Shown here one piece after another: positions 1 through 16,140 of a DNA stretch of 33,225 nt. Within the stretch, counting starts at the first letter, position 1, and each line of letters starts with the position of its first letter. Source of the DNA: Trichodesmium erythraeum GBRTRLIN201 (GTDB lineage Bacteria; Cyanobacteriota; Cyanobacteriia; Cyanobacteriales; Microcoleaceae); NCBI GenBank assembly GCA_018457135.1, contig JAGGDU010000024.1, positions 1-33,225 of the forward strand, in the 5' to 3' direction. The notes under the pieces are model-generated. The model saw nothing but the letters and a program-made list of their open reading frames with translations, did not search any database and had not been told where the DNA came from. The translations under genes were made by a program, and so were the position numbers.

Positions 1-1263
1 CTGAATATGTCGAGCAGCAGCCAGAGCTTCTGGTAATAATTCTGGGAATTTCTCAGCCAAAGCACTGAGAACGTGGGCGCGACCCCGCTCAGACTGAATA
101 TGTCGAGCAGCAGCCAGAGCTTCTGGTAATAATTCTGGGAATTTCTCAGCCAAAGCACTGAGAACTTGGGCGCGATAGTATTCATCCTGAATATGTCGAG
201 CAGCAGCCAGAGCTTCTGGTAATAATTCTGGTAATTTCTCAGCCAAAGCACTGAGAACTAGGGCGCGACCCCGCTCAGACTGAATATGTCGAGCAGCAGC
301 CAGAGCTTCTGGTAATAATTCTGGGAATTTCTCAGCCAAAGCACTGAGAACTTGGGCGCGATATTTATCATGCTGAATATGTCGAGCAGCAGCCAGAGCT
401 TCTGGTAATAATTCTGGTGTCAGTTTCTTAGCCAAAGCACTGAGAACTTGGGCGCGATGTGTTTCACCCTGAATATGTCGAGCAGCAGCCAGTGCTTCTG
501 GTAATAATTCTGGGAATTTATCAGCCAAAGCACTGAGAACTTGGGCGCGATCGTATTTATCCTGAATATGTCGAGCAGCAGCCAGTGCTTCTGGTAATAA
601 TTCTGGGAATTTATCAGCCAAAGCACTGAGAACTTGGGCGCGATCGTATTTATCCTGAATATGTCGAGCAGCAGCCAGTGCTTCTGGTAATAATTCTGGT
701 GTCAATTTATCAGCCAAAGCACTGAGAGCATGGGCGCGATCGTCTTCATCCTGAATCTGTCGAGCAGCAGCCAGTGCTTCTGGTAATAATTCTGGTGTCA
801 ATTTATCAGCCAAAGCACTGAGAGCATGGGCGCGATCGTCTTCATCCTGAATCTGTCGAGCAGCAGCCAGAGCTTCTGGTAATAATTCTGGCATCAATTT
901 CTCAGCCAAAGCACTGAGAACTTGGGCGCGATAGCATGCAGACTGAATACGTCGAGCAGCATCCAGAGCTTTTTGTAATAATTCTGGTGTCAAGTTCTCA
1001 GCCAAAGCACTGAGAGCATGGGCGCGATCGTCTTCATCCTGAATATGTCGAGCAGCAGCCAGAGCTTCTGGTAATAACTCTGGTAACTTATCAGTCAAAG
1101 CACTGAGAGCTTTGGCGCGATCGTCTTCATACTGAATATGTCGAGCAGCAGCCAGAGCTTCTGGTAATAACTCTGGTGTCAATTTCTTAGCCAAAACACT
1201 GAGAGCTTTGGCGCGATCGTCTTCATCCTGAGTCTGTCGAGCAGCAGCCAGTGCTTCTGAAAG
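1..1263 (-). repeat. Tandem 93/96-bp coding repeat array (about 14 units)
   Basis: Unit boundaries, marked by CTGAAT or CTGAGT on the plus strand, fall at 1, 94, 187, 280, 373, 469, 562, 655, 751, 847, 943, 1039, 1132 and 1228. Spacing is 93 bp or 96 bp. The 96-bp form carries one extra codon, reading TPELLPEAL or MPELLPEAL in place of the PELLPEAL form. Units are nearly identical at DNA level including silent positions; the variable residues cluster in the DEYY/DEDD/SERG segment after HIQ. Translated, each unit is a helix-turn-helix of TPR/HEAT type. The array continues past the left edge. Confidence 0.95.
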
Positions 1264-2835
1264 CGCCTGTTTTTTGAAGTTTTCTGGCAAATAATCAACT
1301 AACATTACCAGAGATTTTACTTTATCCAGTAGATCTGGCTTTTGTAATGCATAAGCCAACCCTTGCTCAGGACTCCATACATTGTTTTTAACCAAAGCCA
1401 CCAATAACTCCCTTCGTAAATTCGCTGCCAAACTATTAATAGAAGCAGTGATCAAAGCATAACGACACTGCCAACCAACAACTTGAGCCAACCGACCTTC
1501 ATCCCAGTCAACCTCTGCTAACTCCCAAGCACGAGCCACATCAGTAATAAAAATCCCAATTCGCCCCAAACCATCGCAGGTTTCATACCAACCATTAGCC
1601 CCACTTTTCGACTCCTCCCCCAATAACCCATGAATATCCCCTATCATCCCCGCCCTTTCAAAATGCCAGACCAGATGCTGATGAATATAACCATCATCAG
1701 GCAAAGTATGCCAAAGATAATTATCAGTTAACCTCCTATATTTCTCCAAAAATATTCCGTGAGCCTCAGCCAGACCAATACCCAACCCCGCCAGAGCACC
1801 CCTACCCCTTGGCTTTAGGGGAGCACTCAACAAATTCCGAGCCAAATGATGAAATAAATCATGTAAACGATAACTCTTCTTACCATCAGACAAAGCCACA
1901 CCATCCAACAACAACGCCTTACTCCGCAAATACCCCAACTCATCCCTGGCATCCCGCTCATCATCCATATCCCAGAGTACAGCCGTCATCCCCTGAGTAA
2001 TATTCACATCCTCCGGCAATATCCCCAACCAAATCAAACCCTCCCTAGTTTCCGGCTCCAGTCTCTTAAGACTCAAATTCAACGAAGCAGTCAAACTCAA
2101 CCGTTTTAAACTAGCCTCATCAACAACATCCCTCGCCCCCGGTCGATCCAACGTTCTCAACCGAGCAACTTCTCCTTGAATATCCTCCAACAGCACACCC
2201 CAAGACAGACCATCCTCAACTTGAGCCGCCGCCAACTCCAAAGCCAAAGGCAAATATCCCAACTCCTGAACCAAAGCCTCCGCCTGCCGAGCCTCCTCTC
2301 CCCAAATCTCACGGCCCAACCTCCCACTCAACAACAACATCGACTGCTCCAAGGTCATCACATCCAGACTATAAGTCTTAGCACTCAAAGCCTCAGCGAT
2401 CGCCCTTTCCCGAGTAGTCACCAAAACCTGACAACGGGGACCACCCAGATTAAATATTTGAGCATGGTCCGAATTCCAAGCATCATCCACCACCAAAAGC
2501 ACAGCCTTATCAGAAAGCAAAATCCGCAGATGATTAACAGTCACCTCCACACTTGTCGGTTTAAAATCATAGTCACCCAACTTCTGGACCCAACGACCAA
2601 GCATAGGCAAAATATTAGGCTCTTGGCCCAAAGTCACCCAGAGAATACCATCACAAAAACGAGATTGTACATCCCCATCATAAGCCAAAGCGGTTGCCAG
2701 AGTAGACTTACCCACAGCACCCAAACCGTGGATAGCAGTCACGACAATAGCAGGCCTATCTAATGAATCTATCAGTAGATTAGCCTTTAAATTGTCACTG
2801 TATTCGGGGCGGTCTACATAATATTTTGGGAGTGG
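1..2835 (-). CDS. NB-ARC STAND ATPase with tandem 31/32-residue repeats (partial; continues beyond position 1)
   Basis: This minus-strand frame is open from 2835 to the window edge (945 codons). It encodes a linker (YYVDRPEYSDNLKANLL), then the NB-ARC module: Walker A GLGAVGKST (about 2701-2727), Walker B LLVVDDAW (about 2476-2505), LVTTRE, LPLAL and an MHD-like LHDLF (about 1850-1866). A helical spacer follows, then from about 1263 down to 1 a repeat array (LPEALAAARHIQDE..RAHALSALA). NB-ARC ATPases are signalling switches: ligand binding to the repeats triggers nucleotide exchange and oligomerisation that activates an N-terminal effector. No ATG, GTG or TTG exists in this frame between its upstream stop (near 2928) and a GTG at 2742 abutting the P-loop, so it was probably translated as the C-terminal part of the hydrolase gene (2814-3668), now one base out of frame at a C7 run. 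GC content is visibly higher than in neighbouring genes. The stop codon is outside the window. The NB-ARC call is secure; the ligand is unknown. Confidence 0.9.
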
Positions 2836-3668
2836 GGGGGCCTCAAATATATTGATTCTAACTTTTGTCGTGTAGGTGGAGGCACCAAATATTTTTTTAC
2901 AAACTTTTTTACGGAAAGATAAACCAAATCATTTTTTCGAGGTTTAGCAATAGAATTATGATCTGCTTCAACAGCAACAGGTTTAACATCCTTAATTCCT
3001 GGGTTAGCACTATCCTCATCTACAACCAAAACCCCAGCCATAGGCTTAGTTTCATAAAGGACATGAGTTTTAATATTCAAATTTTCAATATTTTGTCGAT
3101 ACCATTCGTTCAGGTCCCGTAACTGAGGCCCATGGGCTTTCAACTCCTTAACATTAACCGTCGCTTTTGTCAAGACATTAAAATTATCAATTAAATTAGC
3201 CAGATGTGAACCTTGATGGGGAGTAGACAAAAAAACTATTCCTTGAGTCTGTTGGATAATAGCTTTTTTCTCATCAAAATTTTGAGCAGTGCGAATTAAA
3301 TCTTTAACAACCAGACCACCCATACTGTGAGTGATAAATATTAAAGGGCCATCGCCTATATCATTAACATCTAGATATTCCCATAGATTACTTGCTAAGT
3401 CAAAACGCGGCATGCCCTCACCAACATATCCAAAGCGAGGCGCATCATATCCAAAAGTCCAGACATTAACAGCTATTTCATCTTTCTGTAAATCTTGCCC
3501 CAACCAAAAAGGCCAAAAGTCCAAATTTTGATTATTTTTTTTACCTTGAGGATGCCATGTCCCCCAGGGGTGGCCAGCTAACCCATGAACAAAAACAATA
3601 TCACCTCTAGGATGAGAATTTTCACACTCAAATACTCGTGATAAACCAAGCATCTTTTCTTCTGTCAT
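2814..3668 (-). CDS. Alpha/beta hydrolase domain (SERAC1/DUF676-like), likely the N-terminal effector of the NB-ARC protein
   Basis: A 284-residue serine-hydrolase fold. The N-terminal strand/oxyanion segment is DIVFVHGLAGHPWGTW. The nucleophile elbow is FITHSMGGLVVK, with the usual first Gly of GxSxG replaced by Thr (THSMG). The acid is probably in VLVVDEDSAN, and the catalytic His is in ADHNSIAKP followed by the LVYLSVKKFV helix, as is typical of SERAC1-like lipase/esterase domains. In cyanobacteria and other multicellular bacteria such domains often sit in front of NB-ARC or NACHT modules as effectors. The frame ends after RPPHSQNIM at 2814 because it leaves the NB-ARC frame at a C7 tract; a single -1 slip there would join YLRPP directly to PLPKYYVDRPEY. 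It may now act as a stand-alone hydrolase, or the gap may be a sequencing error. Substrate unknown; no signal peptide, so cytoplasmic. Confidence 0.85.
   Translation of the reverse strand: MTEEKMLGLSRVFECENSHPRGDIVFVHGLAGHPWGTWHPQGKKNNQNLDFWPFWLGQDLQKDEIAVNVWTFGYDAPRFGYVGEGMPRFDLASNLWEYLDVNDIGDGPLIFITHSMGGLVVKDLIRTAQNFDEKKAIIQQTQGIVFLSTPHQGSHLANLIDNFNVLTKATVNVKELKAHGPQLRDLNEWYRQNIENLNIKTHVLYETKPMAGVLVVDEDSANPGIKDVKPVAVEADHNSIAKPRKNDLVYLSVKKFVKKYLVPPPTRQKLESIYLRPPHSQNIM
2834..2840 (-). other. C7 homopolymer at hydrolase/NB-ARC frame switch
   Basis: Seven G on the plus strand (C7 in the mRNA sense) lie exactly where the hydrolase frame must shift -1 to enter the NB-ARC frame. Reading AGG CCC CCC and slipping back one base gives CCA CTC CCA, which continues as PLPKYYVDRP. 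C8 instead of C7 would also fuse the frames. It could be a sequencing or assembly indel, a true inactivating mutation, a phase-variable tract or a slippery site; the sequence alone cannot decide. Confidence 0.7.
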
Positions 3669-5518: not shown

Positions 5519-7057
5519 TCAATTATCCTCTGAACCTATAGGAAAATGACGATTATTATTAACCTGATAATAATGATTATTATTTTGGTTGAGATAGGAA
5601 CGAACCTGCTGGTTTAGATGAATGTAAGTCTGAATATCAATTTGATTTAATAATAACATTTCCCTATATTTATTAGCTGCAGTTTCCAGTCTTTCTCTCA
5701 TTTTTTCTTGGCATATTCCTGAAAGACTTTGAAACTCATCAATTAATGCTATTGTATTTTGAATATCTTTTCGATGTTGTTTTTCTTGTAGTTTTCGAGA
5801 CTTATTAGCAAGATCTTGTGTCATATGCTCTAGTTTTTCATAAGCTTCTCTAGACAAATTTCCTTCAACCAACATTAACCGATGTTGGTGTCTTAACTCT
5901 TCCACCTCTTTAAGAGCTTTACTAGGATTTGTTTGTGCAGACATACTTATTTCATTGAGAGCTAAATGGGTATTTATAATCAGCTTTTTACACTGTTTAT
6001 GACGCCACATTCGTAGCATAAAACCGAGAATACCTGTAAACAAAATAATAATAAAACTAGCTTGTAAGTCTTGATTTTCCTCAAAGTAACGCATCCAAAT
6101 TTTTCTAGGATCCCCTTGCTCAAATGATAGTTTAGCACCAGGATGGAGATATAGTAAACCATTACTCAACAAAGACTCAGGGTCGTCCTGAGAAAATTCT
6201 GGATCAAATAACGAGTATTTTTGATAGGATGAAATCAAAGACCAAGTTAAAAGAGCAATTTTTTCTTTGCTAACATCAGGGCGAGTTACTAAAGCAGCAG
6301 CAGTAGAAATAGTCGGTAAATCTTTCTCCGGTATTGGTGATAGAGGCATATAACTACCTTTGGGAAAGACTGTACTTTGGTATGACTCTGGAAATTGAAT
6401 AGTTAAATAGTTAATAAAAGAAGTCGTTATGGGAACTAATTTAAGACTAGGAGGACTCGTTAGTTGGCTTTTCACTTTTTTACTGCCTCCCAAGGGACCG
6501 ACATAAACTAAAGCATCTATTTCTCTTTGTTTAAGTTTATTAAACCCTTGTTCTAGATCAAGTTCTTCTTCTATGATTTTTAAATTTGTAGCACTGAATA
6601 GTCGTTTAGCAGTAAAGTAAGTACCGCTGCCAGGAGTACTAAAGCTAACTCTTTTTTCTTTGAGATCCTGAAAAGTTTTTATTTCCGAGTCAGATAGGGT
6701 AATGAGGTGCAAATATTCATTAGCAAGAACAGCTACTGCTTGTATTTGTCCAGCTTTCATAGCTTCGCTAGCTACATCTAATTGAACTAGGGCAATATCT
6801 GCTTCTCTATTGCGCAGGCGTTGTAGGTTTTCCTGTGAACCCTGGGATATATTGTCGTCAATAGATATTTTCCCAACATCACTAGCTGAATGTATTATTT
6901 GTCTGCCAATACGCTCGTATGCTCCACCTTCAACGCCGCTTGAGAGTATGAGGGTCTGATTTTGGGGAGTACAGCTAGTTAATGTGATCGCTGATAATAA
7001 TATTCCTCCTATTAATTTACTGATTTTTTGGTGATGGGAGTATATGTTATTTAACAT
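5519..7057 (-). CDS. TAXI-family solute-binding lipoprotein with transmembrane helix and coiled-coil tail
   Basis: A 512-residue protein. The N-terminus has a hydrophobic segment and lipobox-like LTSC (LLSAITLTSCTPQ). Residues about 35-310 form a TAXI (TRAP-associated extracytoplasmic immunogenic) periplasmic binding domain: ILSSGVEGGAYERIGRQI, then SFSTPGSGTYFTAKRLF and LVYVGPLGG. Ordinary TAXI proteins are about 320 residues and pair with a TRAP permease, of which there is no gene here. This one continues into a hydrophobic helix (about 333-349, FIIILFTGILGFMLRMW) followed by roughly 160 charged residues predicted as coiled coil (KALKEVEELRHQH and onward). The layout suggests a membrane-anchored sensor or scaffold rather than a transport component. 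That role is inference; the ligand is unknown. It starts at ATG 7057 with only a weak ribosome-binding site. Confidence 0.8.
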   Translation of the reverse strand: MLNNIYSHHQKISKLIGGILLSAITLTSCTPQNQTLILSSGVEGGAYERIGRQIIHSASDVGKISIDDNISQGSQENLQRLRNREADIALVQLDVASEAMKAGQIQAVAVLANEYLHLITLSDSEIKTFQDLKEKRVSFSTPGSGTYFTAKRLFSATNLKIIEEELDLEQGFNKLKQREIDALVYVGPLGGSKKVKSQLTSPPSLKLVPITTSFINYLTIQFPESYQSTVFPKGSYMPLSPIPEKDLPTISTAAALVTRPDVSKEKIALLTWSLISSYQKYSLFDPEFSQDDPESLLSNGLLYLHPGAKLSFEQGDPRKIWMRYFEENQDLQASFIIILFTGILGFMLRMWRHKQCKKLIINTHLALNEISMSAQTNPSKALKEVEELRHQHRLMLVEGNLSREAYEKLEHMTQDLANKSRKLQEKQHRKDIQNTIALIDEFQSLSGICQEKMRERLETAANKYREMLLLNQIDIQTYIHLNQQVRSYLNQNNNHYYQVNNNRHFPIGSEDN

Positions 7058-7806: not shown

Positions 7807-10800
7807 ATGATTGAATGGTTAATTACTTGGGGAAGTAGTGAAGCGGTTAAATGTATTGCGAATGAAGTTGTCGGAGTATTAGCTAAGGGCGCTGCCGAAG
7901 ACTATGTTAAAGATTTTTTTAAGCAAAGTTTCTCTGATGCTTTTGGTGGAATAGCAAATGGAGAACCTTTAAAAAAAGCTACTAAACAAGCAATTAAAGA
8001 TTTTTTAGACTTAGGATATCAAGAGTTAGAAAATGCTGAATTGAGTGAAAGTGACTTAAATAAGTATTCTCAATATTTCAAATCTTTTATTAAAGAAGGA
8101 TCTGTTTTAGAGGTTTTGATTAGTGCTTTTGATAATAAAATCAAAATTTTAGATACTCACAAGCTGGCTATTTCATGGAAACAAATAAACCCACCTTTAC
8201 CAGATAATTTTGACTGGGAATTTCTAGCAAAGCAACATCAGAGAAATGTCAAAAATATTATCCGAAATTCCCAAGAACTACGGTCAATATTAGATTCAAA
8301 AAATCTGGAAGAGATTGTAAACAAAGACATTAAAATCAGACCAGAATTTGACTTAAAAAAATATCAAGAAGGAATCCTAGAACAATATGGAAATCTCAAA
8401 TTAGAAAGTTTAGAGACCAGTGGTTATAGTTATAATGAATTGAAATTATGGAAAATGTTTATTCCTCAAAATGTCCGAGAATCTCAGGAATTTATGCCTC
8501 AAATACATGAAATTCCTAAAGAATATCTCTCCAAATTAAGAGACACTAGACAATTAGAAGCAGAACTTTCTCAAGAACAACTGAAAAGTGTCCGGCGTAG
8601 GTATTTTGAGCAACAGACTCACTCAGTTTTAGAATTAATAGAATATAACAACTATAAATATTTAGTTATTCTGGGAGACCCCGGTTCTGGTAAATCTACT
8701 TTATTACAATATATCGCTTTGCAATGGGCAGAATTACCTCTGAAAGATTTATCTTTAAACCCAATTCCTCTATTAATTGAACTGCGGACTTATGTACGCA
8801 ACCATAATGAGAATAAATGTAATAGTTTTCTAGATTTTTTGGAAAAAGGTAGTGGTGTAAGTTGCCATTTACCTCAGGAAGAACTTCATACTAAATTGCA
8901 AAATGGTAATGCAATTATGATGTTTGATGGGTTAGATGAAGTTTTCGAGCTTGCCAAAAGAGAACAGATAATTACTGATATTCATAGGTTTACTAATGAC
9001 TATAAAAATGTGCAAGTTATTGTTACTTCTCGGGTAATTGGTTATAAGCCACAAAAACTCCGGGATGCAGAATTTTATCATTTTATATTGCAAGATTTGG
9101 AGTCGGAACAAATTGAAACTTTTATTCAACGTTGGCACGATTTGACTTATCAAGATGAGCGAGAAAAGGAGCGGAAAAGAGAAAGGTTAAAACGGGCAAT
9201 TAAAGATTCTTCAGCTATTAAGCAATTGTCAGAAAATCCCTTGTTATTAACAATGATGGCTATTTTGAATCGTCATCAAGAATTACCCAGAGATAGAGCA
9301 GAACTTTATCATCAAGCTTCCCGGATTTTACTGCAGCAATGGGATATGGAAAGGGCATTAATTGATGCGAATCTTAACCCCATGACTATTGACTATAAAG
9401 ATAAGCAAGCAATTTTGCGTCAGGTAGCTTTTTTTATGCAGGAAAATAAGGCAGGTTTAGCTGGTAATTTGATTCATGGAAATGATTTAGAAAAGATTAT
9501 CAGAGCTTATCTAAAAAGTGAAGATATTAATGATCCAAAAACTGTGGCTAGAGCCCTGATGGAACAGTTGCGAAGTCGCAATTTTATTTTGTGTTTTGTT
9601 GGCGCAGAATATTATGCTTTTGTGCATAGAACTTTTTTAGAATATTTTTGTGCTTGGAGTTTTGTTTGGCTGTTTGAAAAAGAACAGAAAATGTCTCCAG
9701 ACAGACTTATAGAAGAAGTTTTTGGTCAGCACTGGCAGGATGAAAAATGGCATGAAGTTTTGCGGTTAATTGTAGGGATGATAGATACTAAGTTTGCGAG
9801 AAAAATAATTTATTATTTAATGGAGCAAGATGGAGAAGAGAAAAAATTTCTGAATTTATTTTTAGCTGGTAAGTGTTTGTTTGAAGTCAGAAATAATCAG
9901 AATATTAGTTTTAGTGATATCGGATATCGGTTATTAAATAAATTAAAACACTTGACTGGGTATGACCTTGGTTATTCTTATGAAGAATATGACAATTATT
10001 CTAAAGAAATTTATCAGAAAAATGCAGCCTTAGTTTATGAAATTCGTACTCAAGCTGTGCAAGTAGTAGCTACAACCTGGAGAGATGAGCGTTTAACCTA
10101 TACTTGGCTCAAACAAAGGGTAGCTTCTGACAATGACCAGGATGTGCGACGTGAAGCTCTGCGACAAATAGCTACTGGTTGGAAGCATCAGCCGGAAATT
10201 TTTGACTTACTTAAACAATGGGTATTCTCTGAGAATGACCAGGATGTGCGACGTGAAGCTCTGCGACAAATAGCTACTGGTTGGAAGCATCAGCCGGAAA
10301 TTTTTGACTTACTTAAACAATGGGTATTCTCTGATGAAAATTCGGATGTGCGACGTGAAGCAGTGCGACAAATAGCTACTGGTTGGAAACATCAGCCGGA
10401 AATTTTTGATTTACTTAAACAATGGGTATTCTCTGATGAAAATTCGGATGTGCGACGTGAAGCCCTGCGACAAATAGCTACTGGTTGGAAACATCAGCCG
10501 GAAATTTTTGATTTACTCAAACAAAGAGTAGAGTCTGATGAGAATTGGGATGTGCGACGTGAAGCAGTGCGACAAATAGCTACTGGTTGGAAACATCAGC
10601 CGGGAATTTTTGATTTACTTAAACAATGGGTAGTCTCTGATGATGACCCAGATGTGCGACGTGAAGCAGTGCGACAAATAGCTACTGGTTGGAAACATCA
10701 GCCGGGAATTTTTGATTTGCTCAAACAAAGGGTAGTATCTGATAAAAATTGGGATGTGCGACGTGAAGCAGTGCGACAAATAGCTACTGGTTGGAAACAT

Positions 10801-11844
10801 CAGCCGGGAATTTTTGATTTACTCAAACAAAGGCTGGTATCTGATGATGACTGGTATGTGAGGGTTGAAGCCCTGCGACAAATAGCTACTGGTTGGAAAT
10901 ATCAGCCGATAATTTTTGATTTACTCAAACAAAGGGTAGAGTCTGATGATGACCCAAATGTACGACGTGAAGCAGCGCGACAAATAGCTGCTGGTTGGAA
11001 ACATCAGCCAGGAATTTTTGATTTACTCAAACAAAGGGTAGAGTCTGATAAAAATTGGGATGTGCGACGTGAAGCGGTGCGACAAATAGCTACTGGTTGG
11101 AAACATCAGCGGGGAACTTTTGGTTTACTCAAACAATGGGTAGACTCTGATAATAGTTCCACTGTGCGACATGAAGCACTGCGACAAATAGTTACTGGTT
11201 GGAAAGATGAACCGGGAATTTTAGATTTACTCAAGGAAAGGGTGAGCTCTGATCATAGTTCTACTGTGCGACGTGAAGCACTGCGACAAATAGTTACTGG
11301 TTGGAAAGATGAACCGGGAATTTTAGATTTACTCAAGGAAAGGGTGAGCTCTGATCATAGTTCTACTGTGCGACGTGAAGCACTGCGACAAATAGCTGCG
11401 GGTTGGAAAGATGAACCGGGAATTTTAGATTTACTCAAGGAAAGGATGAGCTCTGATCATAGTTCCACTGTGCGAGGTGAAGCACTGCGACAAATAGTTA
11501 CTGGTTGGAAACATGAACCGGGAATTTTAGATTTACTCAAGGAAAGGGTGAGCTCTGATCATAGTTCCACTGTGCGAGGTGAAGCAGTGCGACAAATAGT
11601 TACTGGTTGGAAACATGAACCGGGAATTTTTGAGCTGTTTTATCACATCGCTCTCAATGACCCCTTTCAACGTGAAGAATATTTGGATAAGAACCCTCGA
11701 CAAATTGTACTAGCGGCAATAGTCAAACAATATCCAGACCATCCGCAAATTCTCCCACTATTACAAGACAGAGTCGCAAACGACCCAGACGAACAACTAC
11801 GCCACTGGGCAAAAAAGAAATTGCAGGGATTAGAAAATAGCTAG
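7807..11844 (+). CDS. NACHT-domain STAND NTPase with C-terminal HEAT-like repeat array
   Basis: A 1345-residue protein. Residues 1-150 form a helical N-terminal domain (VVGVLAKGAAEDYVKDFF) of the kind found before bacterial NACHT modules; its effector activity is not evident. The NACHT ATPase follows: Walker A GDPGSGKST (290-298), Walker B AIMMFDGLDEV (369-379), VIVTSRVIGY, and the downstream helical region with HRTFLEYFCAWSFVW. From 779 to 1288 there are 15 units of 34 residues (VRREALRQIATGWKHQP), then a diverged HEAT-like cap ending QLRHWAKKKLQGLENS. NACHT proteins are regulated switches related to animal NLRs, and several bacterial ones are antiphage. The repeats are so alike that recent duplication and recombination is likely. 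The gene is a single unit with its own long upstream spacer. The NACHT assignment is firm; a defence role is inference. Confidence 0.93.
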   Translation: MIEWLITWGSSEAVKCIANEVVGVLAKGAAEDYVKDFFKQSFSDAFGGIANGEPLKKATKQAIKDFLDLGYQELENAELSESDLNKYSQYFKSFIKEGSVLEVLISAFDNKIKILDTHKLAISWKQINPPLPDNFDWEFLAKQHQRNVKNIIRNSQELRSILDSKNLEEIVNKDIKIRPEFDLKKYQEGILEQYGNLKLESLETSGYSYNELKLWKMFIPQNVRESQEFMPQIHEIPKEYLSKLRDTRQLEAELSQEQLKSVRRRYFEQQTHSVLELIEYNNYKYLVILGDPGSGKSTLLQYIALQWAELPLKDLSLNPIPLLIELRTYVRNHNENKCNSFLDFLEKGSGVSCHLPQEELHTKLQNGNAIMMFDGLDEVFELAKREQIITDIHRFTNDYKNVQVIVTSRVIGYKPQKLRDAEFYHFILQDLESEQIETFIQRWHDLTYQDEREKERKRERLKRAIKDSSAIKQLSENPLLLTMMAILNRHQELPRDRAELYHQASRILLQQWDMERALIDANLNPMTIDYKDKQAILRQVAFFMQENKAGLAGNLIHGNDLEKIIRAYLKSEDINDPKTVARALMEQLRSRNFILCFVGAEYYAFVHRTFLEYFCAWSFVWLFEKEQKMSPDRLIEEVFGQHWQDEKWHEVLRLIVGMIDTKFARKIIYYLMEQDGEEKKFLNLFLAGKCLFEVRNNQNISFSDIGYRLLNKLKHLTGYDLGYSYEEYDNYSKEIYQKNAALVYEIRTQAVQVVATTWRDERLTYTWLKQRVASDNDQDVRREALRQIATGWKHQPEIFDLLKQWVFSENDQDVRREALRQIATGWKHQPEIFDLLKQWVFSDENSDVRREAVRQIATGWKHQPEIFDLLKQWVFSDENSDVRREALRQIATGWKHQPEIFDLLKQRVESDENWDVRREAVRQIATGWKHQPGIFDLLKQWVVSDDDPDVRREAVRQIATGWKHQPGIFDLLKQRVVSDKNWDVRREAVRQIATGWKHQPGIFDLLKQRLVSDDDWYVRVEALRQIATGWKYQPIIFDLLKQRVESDDDPNVRREAARQIAAGWKHQPGIFDLLKQRVESDKNWDVRREAVRQIATGWKHQRGTFGLLKQWVDSDNSSTVRHEALRQIVTGWKDEPGILDLLKERVSSDHSSTVRREALRQIVTGWKDEPGILDLLKERVSSDHSSTVRREALRQIAAGWKDEPGILDLLKERMSSDHSSTVRGEALRQIVTGWKHEPGILDLLKERVSSDHSSTVRGEAVRQIVTGWKHEPGIFELFYHIALNDPFQREEYLDKNPRQIVLAAIVKQYPDHPQILPLLQDRVANDPDEQLRHWAKKKLQGLENS
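10141..11670 (+). repeat. 15 tandem 102-bp HEAT-like coding repeats
   Basis: Units of exactly 102 bp (34 codons) start at 10141 and every 102 bases after. Two subfamilies are visible. Units 1-10 have WKHQP..IFDLLKQ with variable linkers (SENDQ, SDENS, SDENW, SDDDP, SDKNW). Units 11-15 have WK[DH]EPGILDLLKERVSSDHSS. Differences concentrate at the linker and at the residue before VxSD (W or R), while the VRREA.RQIATGW core is nearly invariant. Confidence 0.95.
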
Positions 11845-13464: not shown

Positions 13465-16140
13465 ATGAACACTTCAAGGCAAAAATCTTATTATCAAGTT
13501 GGTGGTTGTCTTCCTATAAATGCACCGAATTATGTTCAAAGACGAGCAGATGAATACTTTTATGAAGGTCTGAAAGCAGGTGAGTTTTGTTATGTTCTTA
13601 ATTCTCGTCAAATGGGAAAATCTAGTTTGCAAGTTAGAACAATTCAAAGATTACAAAAACAAGGTATTTGTTGTGCAGCAATCGACATTTCAGAAATAGG
13701 TAATCGGGGAGTAACCATCGAACAGTGGTATGCAGGTATTCTGCGGATATTAGAAAATAATTTTAATCTGTCAGAATATGTAAATATTCGTACTTGGTGG
13801 CGAGAGCGAGATTATCTTGCCCCCGTGCAAAGATTAAGTGAATTTATTAACACTGTATTACTAACAAAAATAAATCAGAATATTGTAATTTTTATTGATG
13901 AAATTGATAGTATTCTAGCCCTAGATTTTCCAGTCGATGATTTTTTAGGATTTATTCGAGCTTGTTACAACAAACGTGCTCATAATAATGAATATAATCG
14001 TCTAACTTTTGCTTTGTTAGGAGTTAGTACACCTCAAGATTTATGTCAGGATAAAAGTAGTACACCTTTTAATATTGGAAGAGCAATTGAATTAACTGGC
14101 TTTCAATTAGATGAAGCTTTCTCATTAATAGATGGACTAGTGGGAATTTGTCAGAAACCAGAAGCAGTTTTAAAAGAGGTTTTACTTTGGACTGGAGGGC
14201 AACCATTTTTAACTCAAAAAGTCTGTAAACTCTTAATTGAAAATGGAGAGTTAATTATTAACCCAGCGGAAGAAGTAGCAGGAATTGTTAGGTCAAAAAT
14301 TGTTCATAATTGGGAAGCACAAGACATGCCAGAACATTTAAAGACTATTCGCAACCGCATTTTAAGAAAGAATAAACGAATAGTCAGAAGATTAGGGTTA
14401 TATCAAGAAATTTTACAGAATAACTTGACTGGAATAATAGCAGATAATAGTTCAGAACAAATGGAACTTAGGTTATCTGGATTAGTAGTTAAACGAGATA
14501 ATAAGTTAATAGTTGCTAATCTAATATATAGGACTGTTTTTCATGAAAATATGATTCTTGAAGAATTGGAAAAATTACCTCCCTATTCAGAAGAAATTAA
14601 AGCATGGATTAATTCTAACTGTGCAGATAAATCATATCTATTGCAAGGAAAACATTTACAATCAGCTTTAGTTTGGGCAACAGGAAAAAGTTTAAGAAAT
14701 CAAGATTTCCAATTTTTGACTACTAGCCAAAAATTAGTATTAGATGCTCAGACACAAGCTCTAGAATTAACAAAAATTGAAACTAAAAAAGCTCAAGCAG
14801 AAGTTGTAAAAGCACAACAAAAAGCTCAACTTTGGATTCAAATAGGCTCCACTATTTTTAGCATATCTTTGATTTTATCCATAGGTTTTTCTATATTAGC
14901 CTATCAAAAATTTAAACTAGCACAATCTAGTCATGAAATTGAACAAATTGGCACTGACGCTTTATTATTAGCTATCGAAAAGTCAGCAACAAATCAGGAA
15001 TTATTAGAAGCTTTACCCAAAGCTATATCTGCAGGAAAAAGATTAAAATCTTTAGTAAATAACAATACTCCTCTAGCAGAATATCCTGGGACTCGACCAA
15101 TATTAGCTTTACAAATGATTCTTGATAAACTTGACGAACAAGAACAATTTCAAGATAGTATACTTCAGAAAAGAAAAATTATTTTGCAAGGGCATAATGG
15201 TGCAGTTACCAGTGTAAAATTTAGTCCAAATCAAGAATTTTTAGCTTCAGCAGGAGTAGATGGAAAAGTAATTATTTGGAATCTGGAAGGCAAAAAAATT
15301 ACAGAATGGGAAACAGAACAAAAATCAATTAATAGTCTAATTTTTCATCCTGATAATAAATATTTAGCAACTGCTGGTAGTAACGGCACAGTAAAAATAT
15401 GGAGTCTATTAAAGAAAAATTTAGGGATAAAATTATATGTATTAGAAATATCTCAAACTGAAGTTAATAGTATTAGTTTTAGTGCTAATGGTAAGTATTT
15501 AGCAACTGCTGGCATAAATATTCCTGTACAAATTTGGAACTTATCATCGCTGCCGATAAATATATCATCTGATCAAGTTTTGGATGATCATGGTTTAATT
15601 AGAAACATTCATTTTAGCCCTAATGATAATTTTCTAGCTACATTAGATGGGAAATCTACTATTAGATTATGGAATTTATCTGAAAATAAATTTAAAATCC
15701 TAGATGTAGAAGCTATTAGTATGAATTTTAGCATTAATAAACCTCAGATATTACTAACAGCAACGTCAAATGGAATAGTAGAAATGTGGCAGACTTATAC
15801 TGGGAGATTAGTCAATAATTTTCAAAGTTTACATTTAGATACTAAGCTAGTTAATTTTAGTCCTGATGGAAGATTAATAGCTACTGTTGGAATTGATAGT
15901 ATTGTAAGACTTTGGAATTTATCAGGGCGACAAATTAACCAATTTGAATTTTCCGAAAATGTAATTGATATAGCCTTTAGTTCAGATGGAAAAAAAATTG
16001 CTGTAGCTGATAGTAACGGTCAAATTTGGTTGATTTATTTGGAAAATTTAGAGGAGCTTTTGAGTAAAGGATGTAGGTTTTTATTAAAAAGACCAAACTA
16101 TTTTATGAGGGTAGAAGAATTTTGTCAGAATAGTAGGTAG
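13465..16140 (+). CDS. AAA-like domain / transmembrane / WD40 repeat protein
   Basis: An 891-residue fusion. Residues 1-380 are the cyanobacterial AAA-like (AAA_35) ATPase: [20 protein letters not shown] at the start, atypical P-loop NSRQMGKS (46-53), Walker [13 protein letters not shown] (about 142-153) and [10 protein letters not shown] charged coiled coil ([19 protein letters not shown]) leads into one membrane helix (about 456-481, [18 protein letters not shown]). Residues 571-870 make seven WD40 blades, the first [13 protein letters not shown]...WNLEG; several blades have lost the GH or WD signature residues. Such proteins are abundant in filamentous cyanobacteria and are thought to be STAND-like sensors; no partner is known. 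It is monocistronic. Unlike the NB-ARC and NACHT repeats, the blades are strongly diverged from one another. Confidence 0.9.

Follow-up and report, generated by a model that had tools for sequence, protein, structure and literature searches.

A TAXI solute-binding protein of Trichodesmium with a transmembrane helix and a duplicated helical tail, a candidate membrane receptor

Results

A TAXI domain, a membrane segment and a tail in one reading frame

The window is the whole stretch of 33,225 nucleotides that was analysed, from Trichodesmium erythraeum GBRTRLIN201 (genome G000; an assembly of 7.2 Mb in 241 contigs, of the same genus as G430 in our survey and presumably a filamentous cyanobacterium). 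The gene under study is an ATG-start ORF on the minus strand (5519-7057) that encodes 512 aa. Its product starts with a predicted signal peptide (residues 1-29; 6971-7057, minus strand) ending in a lipobox, LTSC, in which Cys29 is invariant in a five-row alignment and is found in 9/9 rows of a second one. The TAXI solute-binding domain follows (about residues 33-314; 6116-6961, minus strand). TIGR02122 matches residues 20-310 (E 1.8e-39; 135.4 bits, where the cut-off is 84.35), which places the protein in the TAXI family, and PF16868 matches residues 41-309 (E 1.8e-30); these profiles cover 57% and 53% of the protein, respectively. In accordance, the closest solved chains in a phmmer search are the TAXI proteins 1us4, 8u79, 9ibo, and 8s4j (E 7e-15 to 7e-14). 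No other protein of the genome matches TIGR02122 above the cut-off, and four weaker matches lie below it.

A single late hydrophobic segment (residues 330-348, hydropathy 1.89) corresponds to a predicted transmembrane helix, which the AF2 model of the tail also contains (6014-6070, minus strand). The order of a TAXI domain and then a transmembrane helix, as well as the lipobox-like N-terminus, had been proposed in an earlier note on this DNA, and both are borne out by the profiles, the hydropathy, and the two alignments. The remaining 164 residues form the tail. It comprises two helical units predicted to be cytoplasmic, unit 1 (residues 349-424; 5786-6013, minus strand) and unit 2 (residues 425-490; 5588-5785, minus strand), and an Asn-rich, non-conserved end (residues 491-512; 5522-5587, minus strand), where 0/22 columns are invariant and pLDDT falls below 50 in the final ten residues.

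Judged by its conservation, this layout, in which a lipobox and a TAXI domain are followed by a single predicted transmembrane helix and 164 further residues with a predicted cytoplasmic location, is real and above chance, because it recurs in eight further genomes of the family at 61-74% identity and dN/dS is below 1 in 6/6 pairs.

Surroundings of the gene

Three large signalling-type ATPases lie within 16 kb: an NB-ARC protein (1-2742, minus strand) truncated at the start of the contig, a NACHT protein with the order NNH2-NACHT-HEAT (7807-11844, plus strand), and an AAA_35-WD40 protein (13465-16140, plus strand). The group looks like a STAND-type or defence-like gene cluster; its PADLOC matches are weak. 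The HEAT repeats of the NACHT protein are encoded by a 102-bp tandem repeat in fifteen copies (88% matches; 10108-11633), and a 93-bp tandem repeat in the NB-ARC gene has 13.3 copies (90% matches; 1-1259). The latter array may be the reason for the assembly break at the contig start. Beside the NB-ARC gene, a frame on the minus strand (2814-3668) appears by eye to be alpha/beta hydrolase-like; it matches DUF626_VIII of PADLOC (E 1.2e-22), and its Pfam match, DUF7379, is below the cut-off.

For the TAXI protein itself, no defence model matches at E 1e-5, and the scan for viral contigs found none. In a tblastn search of plasmids and phages, no place covers 80% of the query, and the 24 matches listed end by residue 334.

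The tail is a tandem duplication

The two halves of the tail align to each other over 65 columns (hhalign probability 95.5, E 1.4e-8; the input had six rows, two pairs of them near-identical). None of 200 column shuffles scores as well, and a reversed control gives a probability of 2.5. The match between the halves indicates that the tail arose by tandem duplication, and on this alignment evidence it is a pair of ~65-residue units, predicted to be helical.

In the earlier note, the tail was a charged coiled coil of ~160 residues. The helical part of that description agrees with the model, but the tail consists of two tandem units, and its charge and periodicity make the term a loose one. Charged residues account for 27% of the tail vs 22% of the TAXI domain. 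The hydrophobic periodicity over residues 403-500 is 3.65 (a heptad has 3.5), and 35/500 shuffles do as well, a weak signal; two sub-stretches have periods of 3.75 and 3.85, and three short ones have periods of 3.3-3.45, not above shuffles. The tandem duplication and the weak periodicity speak against a plain charged coiled coil as the description of the tail.

An AF2 model of the helix and tail, built from three sequences, has a mean pLDDT of 85 and underlies both units, along with the duplication. It predicts helices at residues 326-374, 378-397, and 403-501, and the transmembrane segment sits in the model within one unbroken helix (326-374). The full-length AF2 model, likewise from three sequences, is poor (pLDDT 39.9) and splits the last helix into 403-442, 450-469, and 475-500. 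Therefore, the continuity of the helix 403-501 is unsure.

We searched for relatives of the tail in several ways. No Pfam or NCBIfam model passes its cut-off on the tail, which has no recognised output domain; the best matches below it are Thioredoxin (E 0.15) and a helicase model (E 0.007, 15.2 bits vs 686). Foldseek against the PDB gives no match at E ≤0.001. A profile search of the PDB returned two AI-designed repeat proteins (E 4e-7 and 6e-7), which were discarded as relatives because they add up four weak local matches, none significant alone; V-ATPase subunit C (E 0.02) was rejected as well. Of the 386 genomes of the phylum, six match the tail profile strongly (E 6e-63 or better), in each case within the frames of these TAXI proteins, and five further matches at E 1e-3 to 1e-2 are chance-like.

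The tail is under selection. For six pairs, dN/dS is 0.20-0.54 in the helix and tail vs 0.16-0.26 in the TAXI domain, all below 1, and it is higher in the tail in 5/6. These values come from a custom counting script applied to 6 of the 36 possible pairs of nine sequences, with the broken G430 gene excluded. By this measure, both parts are under purifying selection, which is weaker on the tail in 5/6 pairs.

Topology of the protein

The first 15 residues of the tail include five Lys/Arg and no acidic residue, and an Arg/Lys-rich sequence comes directly after the late segment in 8/8 close rows. As one helix follows a periplasmic domain and the positive charge lies on the tail side in all eight rows, the tail should be cytoplasmic. 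In sequence, the layout fits a one-piece receptor, with a predicted extracytoplasmic ligand domain, a predicted transmembrane helix, and a predicted cytoplasmic part.

Alternatively, the late segment might not span the membrane, or the protein might be a usual lipoprotein that carries a helix at its C-terminus, and the tail would then be periplasmic. Such an arrangement would fit the two close rows in which the hydropathy of the segment is merely 1.46 (L004 and L005). It fits less well with the six other close rows, where the value is 1.71-2.25, and with the basic flank common to all eight. Moreover, the tailed paralogues of a second lineage (described below) have a lipobox match in 0/18 rows and an N-terminal hydrophobic segment in 17/18, the exception being L014, whose frame starts late; all but L014 thus combine an N-terminal and a late hydrophobic segment, which is the usual layout of a receptor. 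We consider a periplasmic tail very improbable.

The ligand pocket

In VcGluP, residues Y45, S75, Q93, E125, Y200, and M201 were mutated, and the Gln and Tyr proved critical (PMC11574862, in excerpt). The importance of the Y and Q is confirmed for BP0403 (PMC12344293, in excerpt). By alignment, the equivalents in the window protein are Y47, S74, Q92, E114, Y185, and V186. Five of the six mutated contact residues are therefore kept, and M201 is replaced by V. Residues S75, Q93, E125, and Y200 of VcGluP are identical in 8/8 close rows, and Y45 is identical in the seven rows that reach it (L032 starts later); its equivalence is bridged through 1us4, as the aligned VcGluP stretch starts later. Two water-binding positions are changed, H123 to A and D157 to T.

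Many other TAXI rows also have the pocket Y, S, Q, and E (L031, described below, is left out of this table). Therefore, the pocket supports a protein that still binds a ligand over one that specifically binds glutamate. Given the wide spread of these four residues and the changes at H123 and D157, the call of glutamate is a weak one, and the TAXI domain possibly binds L-glutamate or a near relative. In the second lineage, the position of Y200 is occupied by Arg in 15/18 rows, which suggests that these proteins probably bind a different ligand.

The pocket also bears on whether ligand binding is still the task of the protein. A structural or scaffolding protein could have retained the TAXI fold while its main task became oligomerisation or membrane organisation via the helical tail. 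The long helices in the tail model and the lack of an output domain would suit such a role, and the best 50 of 124 Foldseek matches include membrane-remodelling and coiled-coil proteins, but all of these have E ≥0.76 and are not significant. A scaffold would also leave the retention of the pocket side chains to be explained, as well as the stronger constraint on the TAXI domain, in which 107/288 columns are invariant vs 32/142 in residues 349-490 and 0/22 in the end. We regard this explanation as quite improbable.

Distribution of the window lineage

Full-length relatives are present in at least five of the 386 phylum genomes besides that of the window (G380, G076, G093, G045, and G033), at 34-44% identity. 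In a survey of 61 genomes of the family, eight carriers are found in addition to G000, at the 61-74% identity given above; the copy in G430, whose contig equals a record of Hydrocoleum sp. CS-953 in reverse complement, is in pieces, and a match in G387 (30%, ending at residue 392) is excluded from the count. A piece from a MAG labelled Crocosphaera (L033), cut within the tail, is 75% identical. Altogether, at least 14 genomes or MAGs carry the gene besides the window genome. The phylum counts are lower bounds, as the searches scored the best three (relatives) or five (TAXI) candidates per genome.

Two records deserve comment. The 75% identity of L033 to the window gene is above expectation for Crocosphaera, a possible binning error or transfer. 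On a contig of Hydrocoleum sp. CS-953 (L032 = L089, a single record counted once), stretches of the TAXI gene are repeated around N positions, so that a single gene falls into three frames, which resembles a scaffolding artefact.

The earlier note had suggested a search for other proteins of this order and for their neighbours. The layout is indeed found in further genomes, and its neighbours are not conserved across genera. Within a genus they are common, as in G076 with G093, G045 with G033, and the five g149 genomes. Across genera, no conserved neighbour beyond scattered matches and no fusion partner is found for the lineage. Ribosomal genes, which we take to be rplU and rpmA, adjoin the TAXI-tail gene in 4/5 g149 genomes.

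Transporter partners

By inspection, none of the listed ORFs of the window encodes a TRAP permease, in line with the earlier note, which had found none nearby. The observation is weak evidence, since the DctP genes of this genome are not beside the permease genes either. G000 has a DctPQM-type system with its only DctM match and a DctQ-like ORF away from the window, on contig C86, and two DctP genes on C113, and no DctP is found in the 10 kb around the DctQ-DctM pair (L002, L060). Gene order thus says little in G000.

A fused permease (TIGR02123) was searched for in 24 of the 33 genomes with TAXI proteins. It is above the cut-off in one and has no match at all in nine. In each of the remaining nine TAXI genomes, the one DctM match falls in a frame of 443-469 codons, which is the length of an unfused permease. 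G000 has no fused TAXI permease above the cut-off; its best match is the unfused DctM (E 1.4e-14, 54.8 bits vs 320.65). The one genome with a fused permease (689 aa), G111, encodes it directly after an ordinary TAXI protein of 318 aa and away from its tailed TAXI. Tailed paralogues of the second lineage occur in nine genomes without a fused-permease match; eight of these lack a DctM match, and G300 has one at E 7.7e-4.

A full-length GltS (PF03616) is encoded in 3/24 genomes, at positions far from the TAXI genes. None is found in G000 (where a match below the cut-off has internal stops), G380, G033, or G045, and by these positions no GltS is coupled or fused to a TAXI gene. The 363 ORFs that neighbour 31 loci (30 distinct) include no DctM-like or fused-permease match at E 0.5 or better; a smaller run of neighbour ORFs had one 38-residue permease match at E 0.38. 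In these searches, gene order links none of the tailed proteins to a TRAP permease or to GltS.

Co-occurrence in genomes gives a different picture. Within the family, 9/9 carriers have DctP vs 10/52 other genomes (Fisher 5e-6), and 8/9 have DctM vs 9/52 (Fisher 6e-5), both uncorrected for kinship; the carrier without a DctM match, G389, is 83% complete. In the draw from the phylum, DctM is full-length in 6/6 carriers. Counted by genus, the link is not significant: all 3/3 carrier genera are among the 8/11 with DctP in the family (p 0.34), and all 4/4 are among the 45/85 with DctM in the class (p 0.07; the 45/85 is a hand count, with genus numbers g1-g85 read as the class).

These counts speak in favour of a transport accessory. 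In that case, the protein would be a binding protein with two tethers that supplies a permease encoded elsewhere, either the DctQM on C86 or another carrier, and the tail would serve as a cytoplasmic anchor or clamp. A precedent for an unrelated carrier is at hand, as a TAXI protein works with GltS according to evidence in PMC12344293 (in excerpt). Against this explanation, the link fades when counted by genus, the two DctP genes of G000 presumably serve its DctQM, and TAXI systems use a fused permease (PMC12344293, in excerpt), which G000 lacks above the cut-off. Furthermore, a conserved cytoplasmic tail is not needed for uptake, and the neighbour ORFs hold no permease. We consider a transport accessory unlikely.

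The statement of the earlier note that the protein is not a transport part finds support. It agrees with the lack of a fused permease above the cut-off in G000 and with the single one elsewhere lying beside a tailless TAXI protein. It is weakened by DctP or DctM, one or the other of which is present in 14/14 carrier genomes searched (the MAG is outside this set). A TRAP permease co-conserved with the gene, which the earlier note would have taken as evidence against its reading, is found in part, at the level of genomes, and the association is not significant by genus.

Tailed TAXI proteins in the cyanobacterial phylum

At E 1e-15 or better, TIGR02122 matches at least 37 proteins in at least 33 of the 386 genomes. 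We inspected 36 of the 37, all but a 193-codon frame in G286. In 26 of them, a tail of 79-245 aa comes after a late segment with a hydropathy of at least 1.4, and 10 have no late segment.

In a tree of 36 TAXI domains, the window lineage is one clade (100/100), and the other tailed proteins, G010 excepted, form a second clade (100/99). The support that bears on one tailed ancestor for both lineages is low (70/53). Left out of the tree are the eight orthologues from the family, L032, L033, and L031, the G286 protein, which had been taken in the wrong frame (its correct one is 193 codons long).

The tails of the second lineage (in proteins of 440 or 540 aa) are built from another unit, present once or twice, that is not detectably related to that of the window protein. 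A common origin of the two kinds of unit is unsupported (hhalign probability 0.9, with 6/200 shuffles as good; the tails of G010, G174, and G231 and the second tail of G306 are left out of this comparison).

The neighbours of the second lineage are partly common across genera, as in G030 with G306 and G300 with G191. In G030 (L055, 6140-10158) and G306 (L056, 6237-10059), which belong to different genera, the tailed paralogue has the same genes on either side, one of 605-623 aa upstream and one of 165-166 aa downstream.

Discussion

Comparison with known systems

The window protein has its domain of residues 20-310 in common with the TAXI proteins of TRAP transporters (TIGR02122), such as VcGluP and TtSBP (1us4). 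Known TAXI proteins have 300-350 aa and are mostly encoded with a fused permease (PMC12344293, in excerpt). In contrast, the window protein has 512 aa, adding a transmembrane helix and the 164-aa tail, and has no fused QM permease above the cut-off.

The TAXI-GltS protein BP0403 of Bordetella pertussis resembles it in being an elongated predicted lipoprotein with a TAXI domain, an extra helical region, and no TRAP permease; its architecture is called previously unidentified in the same excerpt (PMC12344293). However, the extra domains of BP0403 precede the TAXI domain and gltS is coupled to it, whereas in the window protein the extra part follows the transmembrane helix and the genome has no full-length GltS.

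The nearest functional parallel is GlnH-GlnX-PknG of actinobacteria, in which information from an Asp/Glu-binding lipoprotein is believed to reach a helical membrane protein as well as the cytoplasm; its direct contacts are not yet demonstrated, according to PMC9769921 (in excerpt). The likeness is one of description. GlnH and GlnX are two proteins, and GlnX has four transmembrane segments, whereas the window protein is one polypeptide with one late helix.

Solute-binding protein families also serve as sensor domains of membrane receptors, including sensor kinases, chemoreceptors, and cyclases (PMC9602780, in excerpt). With these receptors the window protein has in common an outside ligand domain of the solute-binding type, a transmembrane helix, and a predicted cytoplasmic part, although its tail passes no Pfam cut-off. 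That source flags low profile coverage (a sign of receptor sensor domains), a transmembrane region, and an absent signal peptide in curation. Two of the three flags apply here, as coverage is below 60% and a transmembrane segment is present; the signal-peptide flag is not applicable.

A model of signalling

On balance, we think it somewhat more likely than not that the window protein is a one-piece TAXI membrane receptor with L-glutamate or a near relative as the likely ligand, a private two-unit tail, and a putative cytoplasmic partner. Points against this reading are that the searches recognised no output domain in the tail and no conserved neighbour or fusion partner of the gene, that the carrier genomes have DctP or DctM as well, and that the full-length AF2 model is poor. 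The computed features that precede, namely the TAXI identity, the lipobox, the hydrophobic segment, the tail duplication, the conservation and selection, and the pocket residues, are compatible with the following model. The lipid-anchored Venus-flytrap domain would bind a small carboxylate in the periplasm. Closure of the flytrap would be passed on via the one helix in the membrane, which in the AF2 model of the tail runs on into the predicted cytoplasmic part, and the duplicated helical tail would change its contacts with a cytoplasmic partner. Since the tail resembles no known enzyme, it would have to act by contact. The topology, the ligand, the oligomeric state, the passage of the signal, and the partner, like every step past a TAXI domain outside and a tail inside, are what we infer, and so is signalling through the membrane as such.

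Implications

In a literature search that had most subscription journals outside its scope, we did not find TAXI-transmembrane-tail proteins described. TAXI domains carry the name of a TRAP subunit, and yet 26 of the at least 37 in the phylum are membrane proteins with tails. Because most have tails and the sole fused permease adjoins a tailless TAXI protein (in the 24 genomes searched, which hold 25/26 of the tailed proteins), the name TRAP transporter subunit is probably wrong for most tailed TAXI proteins.

More tentatively, and with rather less than an even chance of being right, cyanobacteria may have turned TAXI proteins into one-piece receptors, perhaps twice independently, each time with their own helical repeat tails. 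The window lineage would then sense glutamate or a relative and inform nitrogen or carbon metabolism in the cytoplasm with none of the modules of kinases, cyclases, or chemoreceptors. Should the protein prove to be a receptor, bacterial sensing would gain a ligand domain and a new output domain, and filamentous cyanobacteria a candidate amino-acid sensor.
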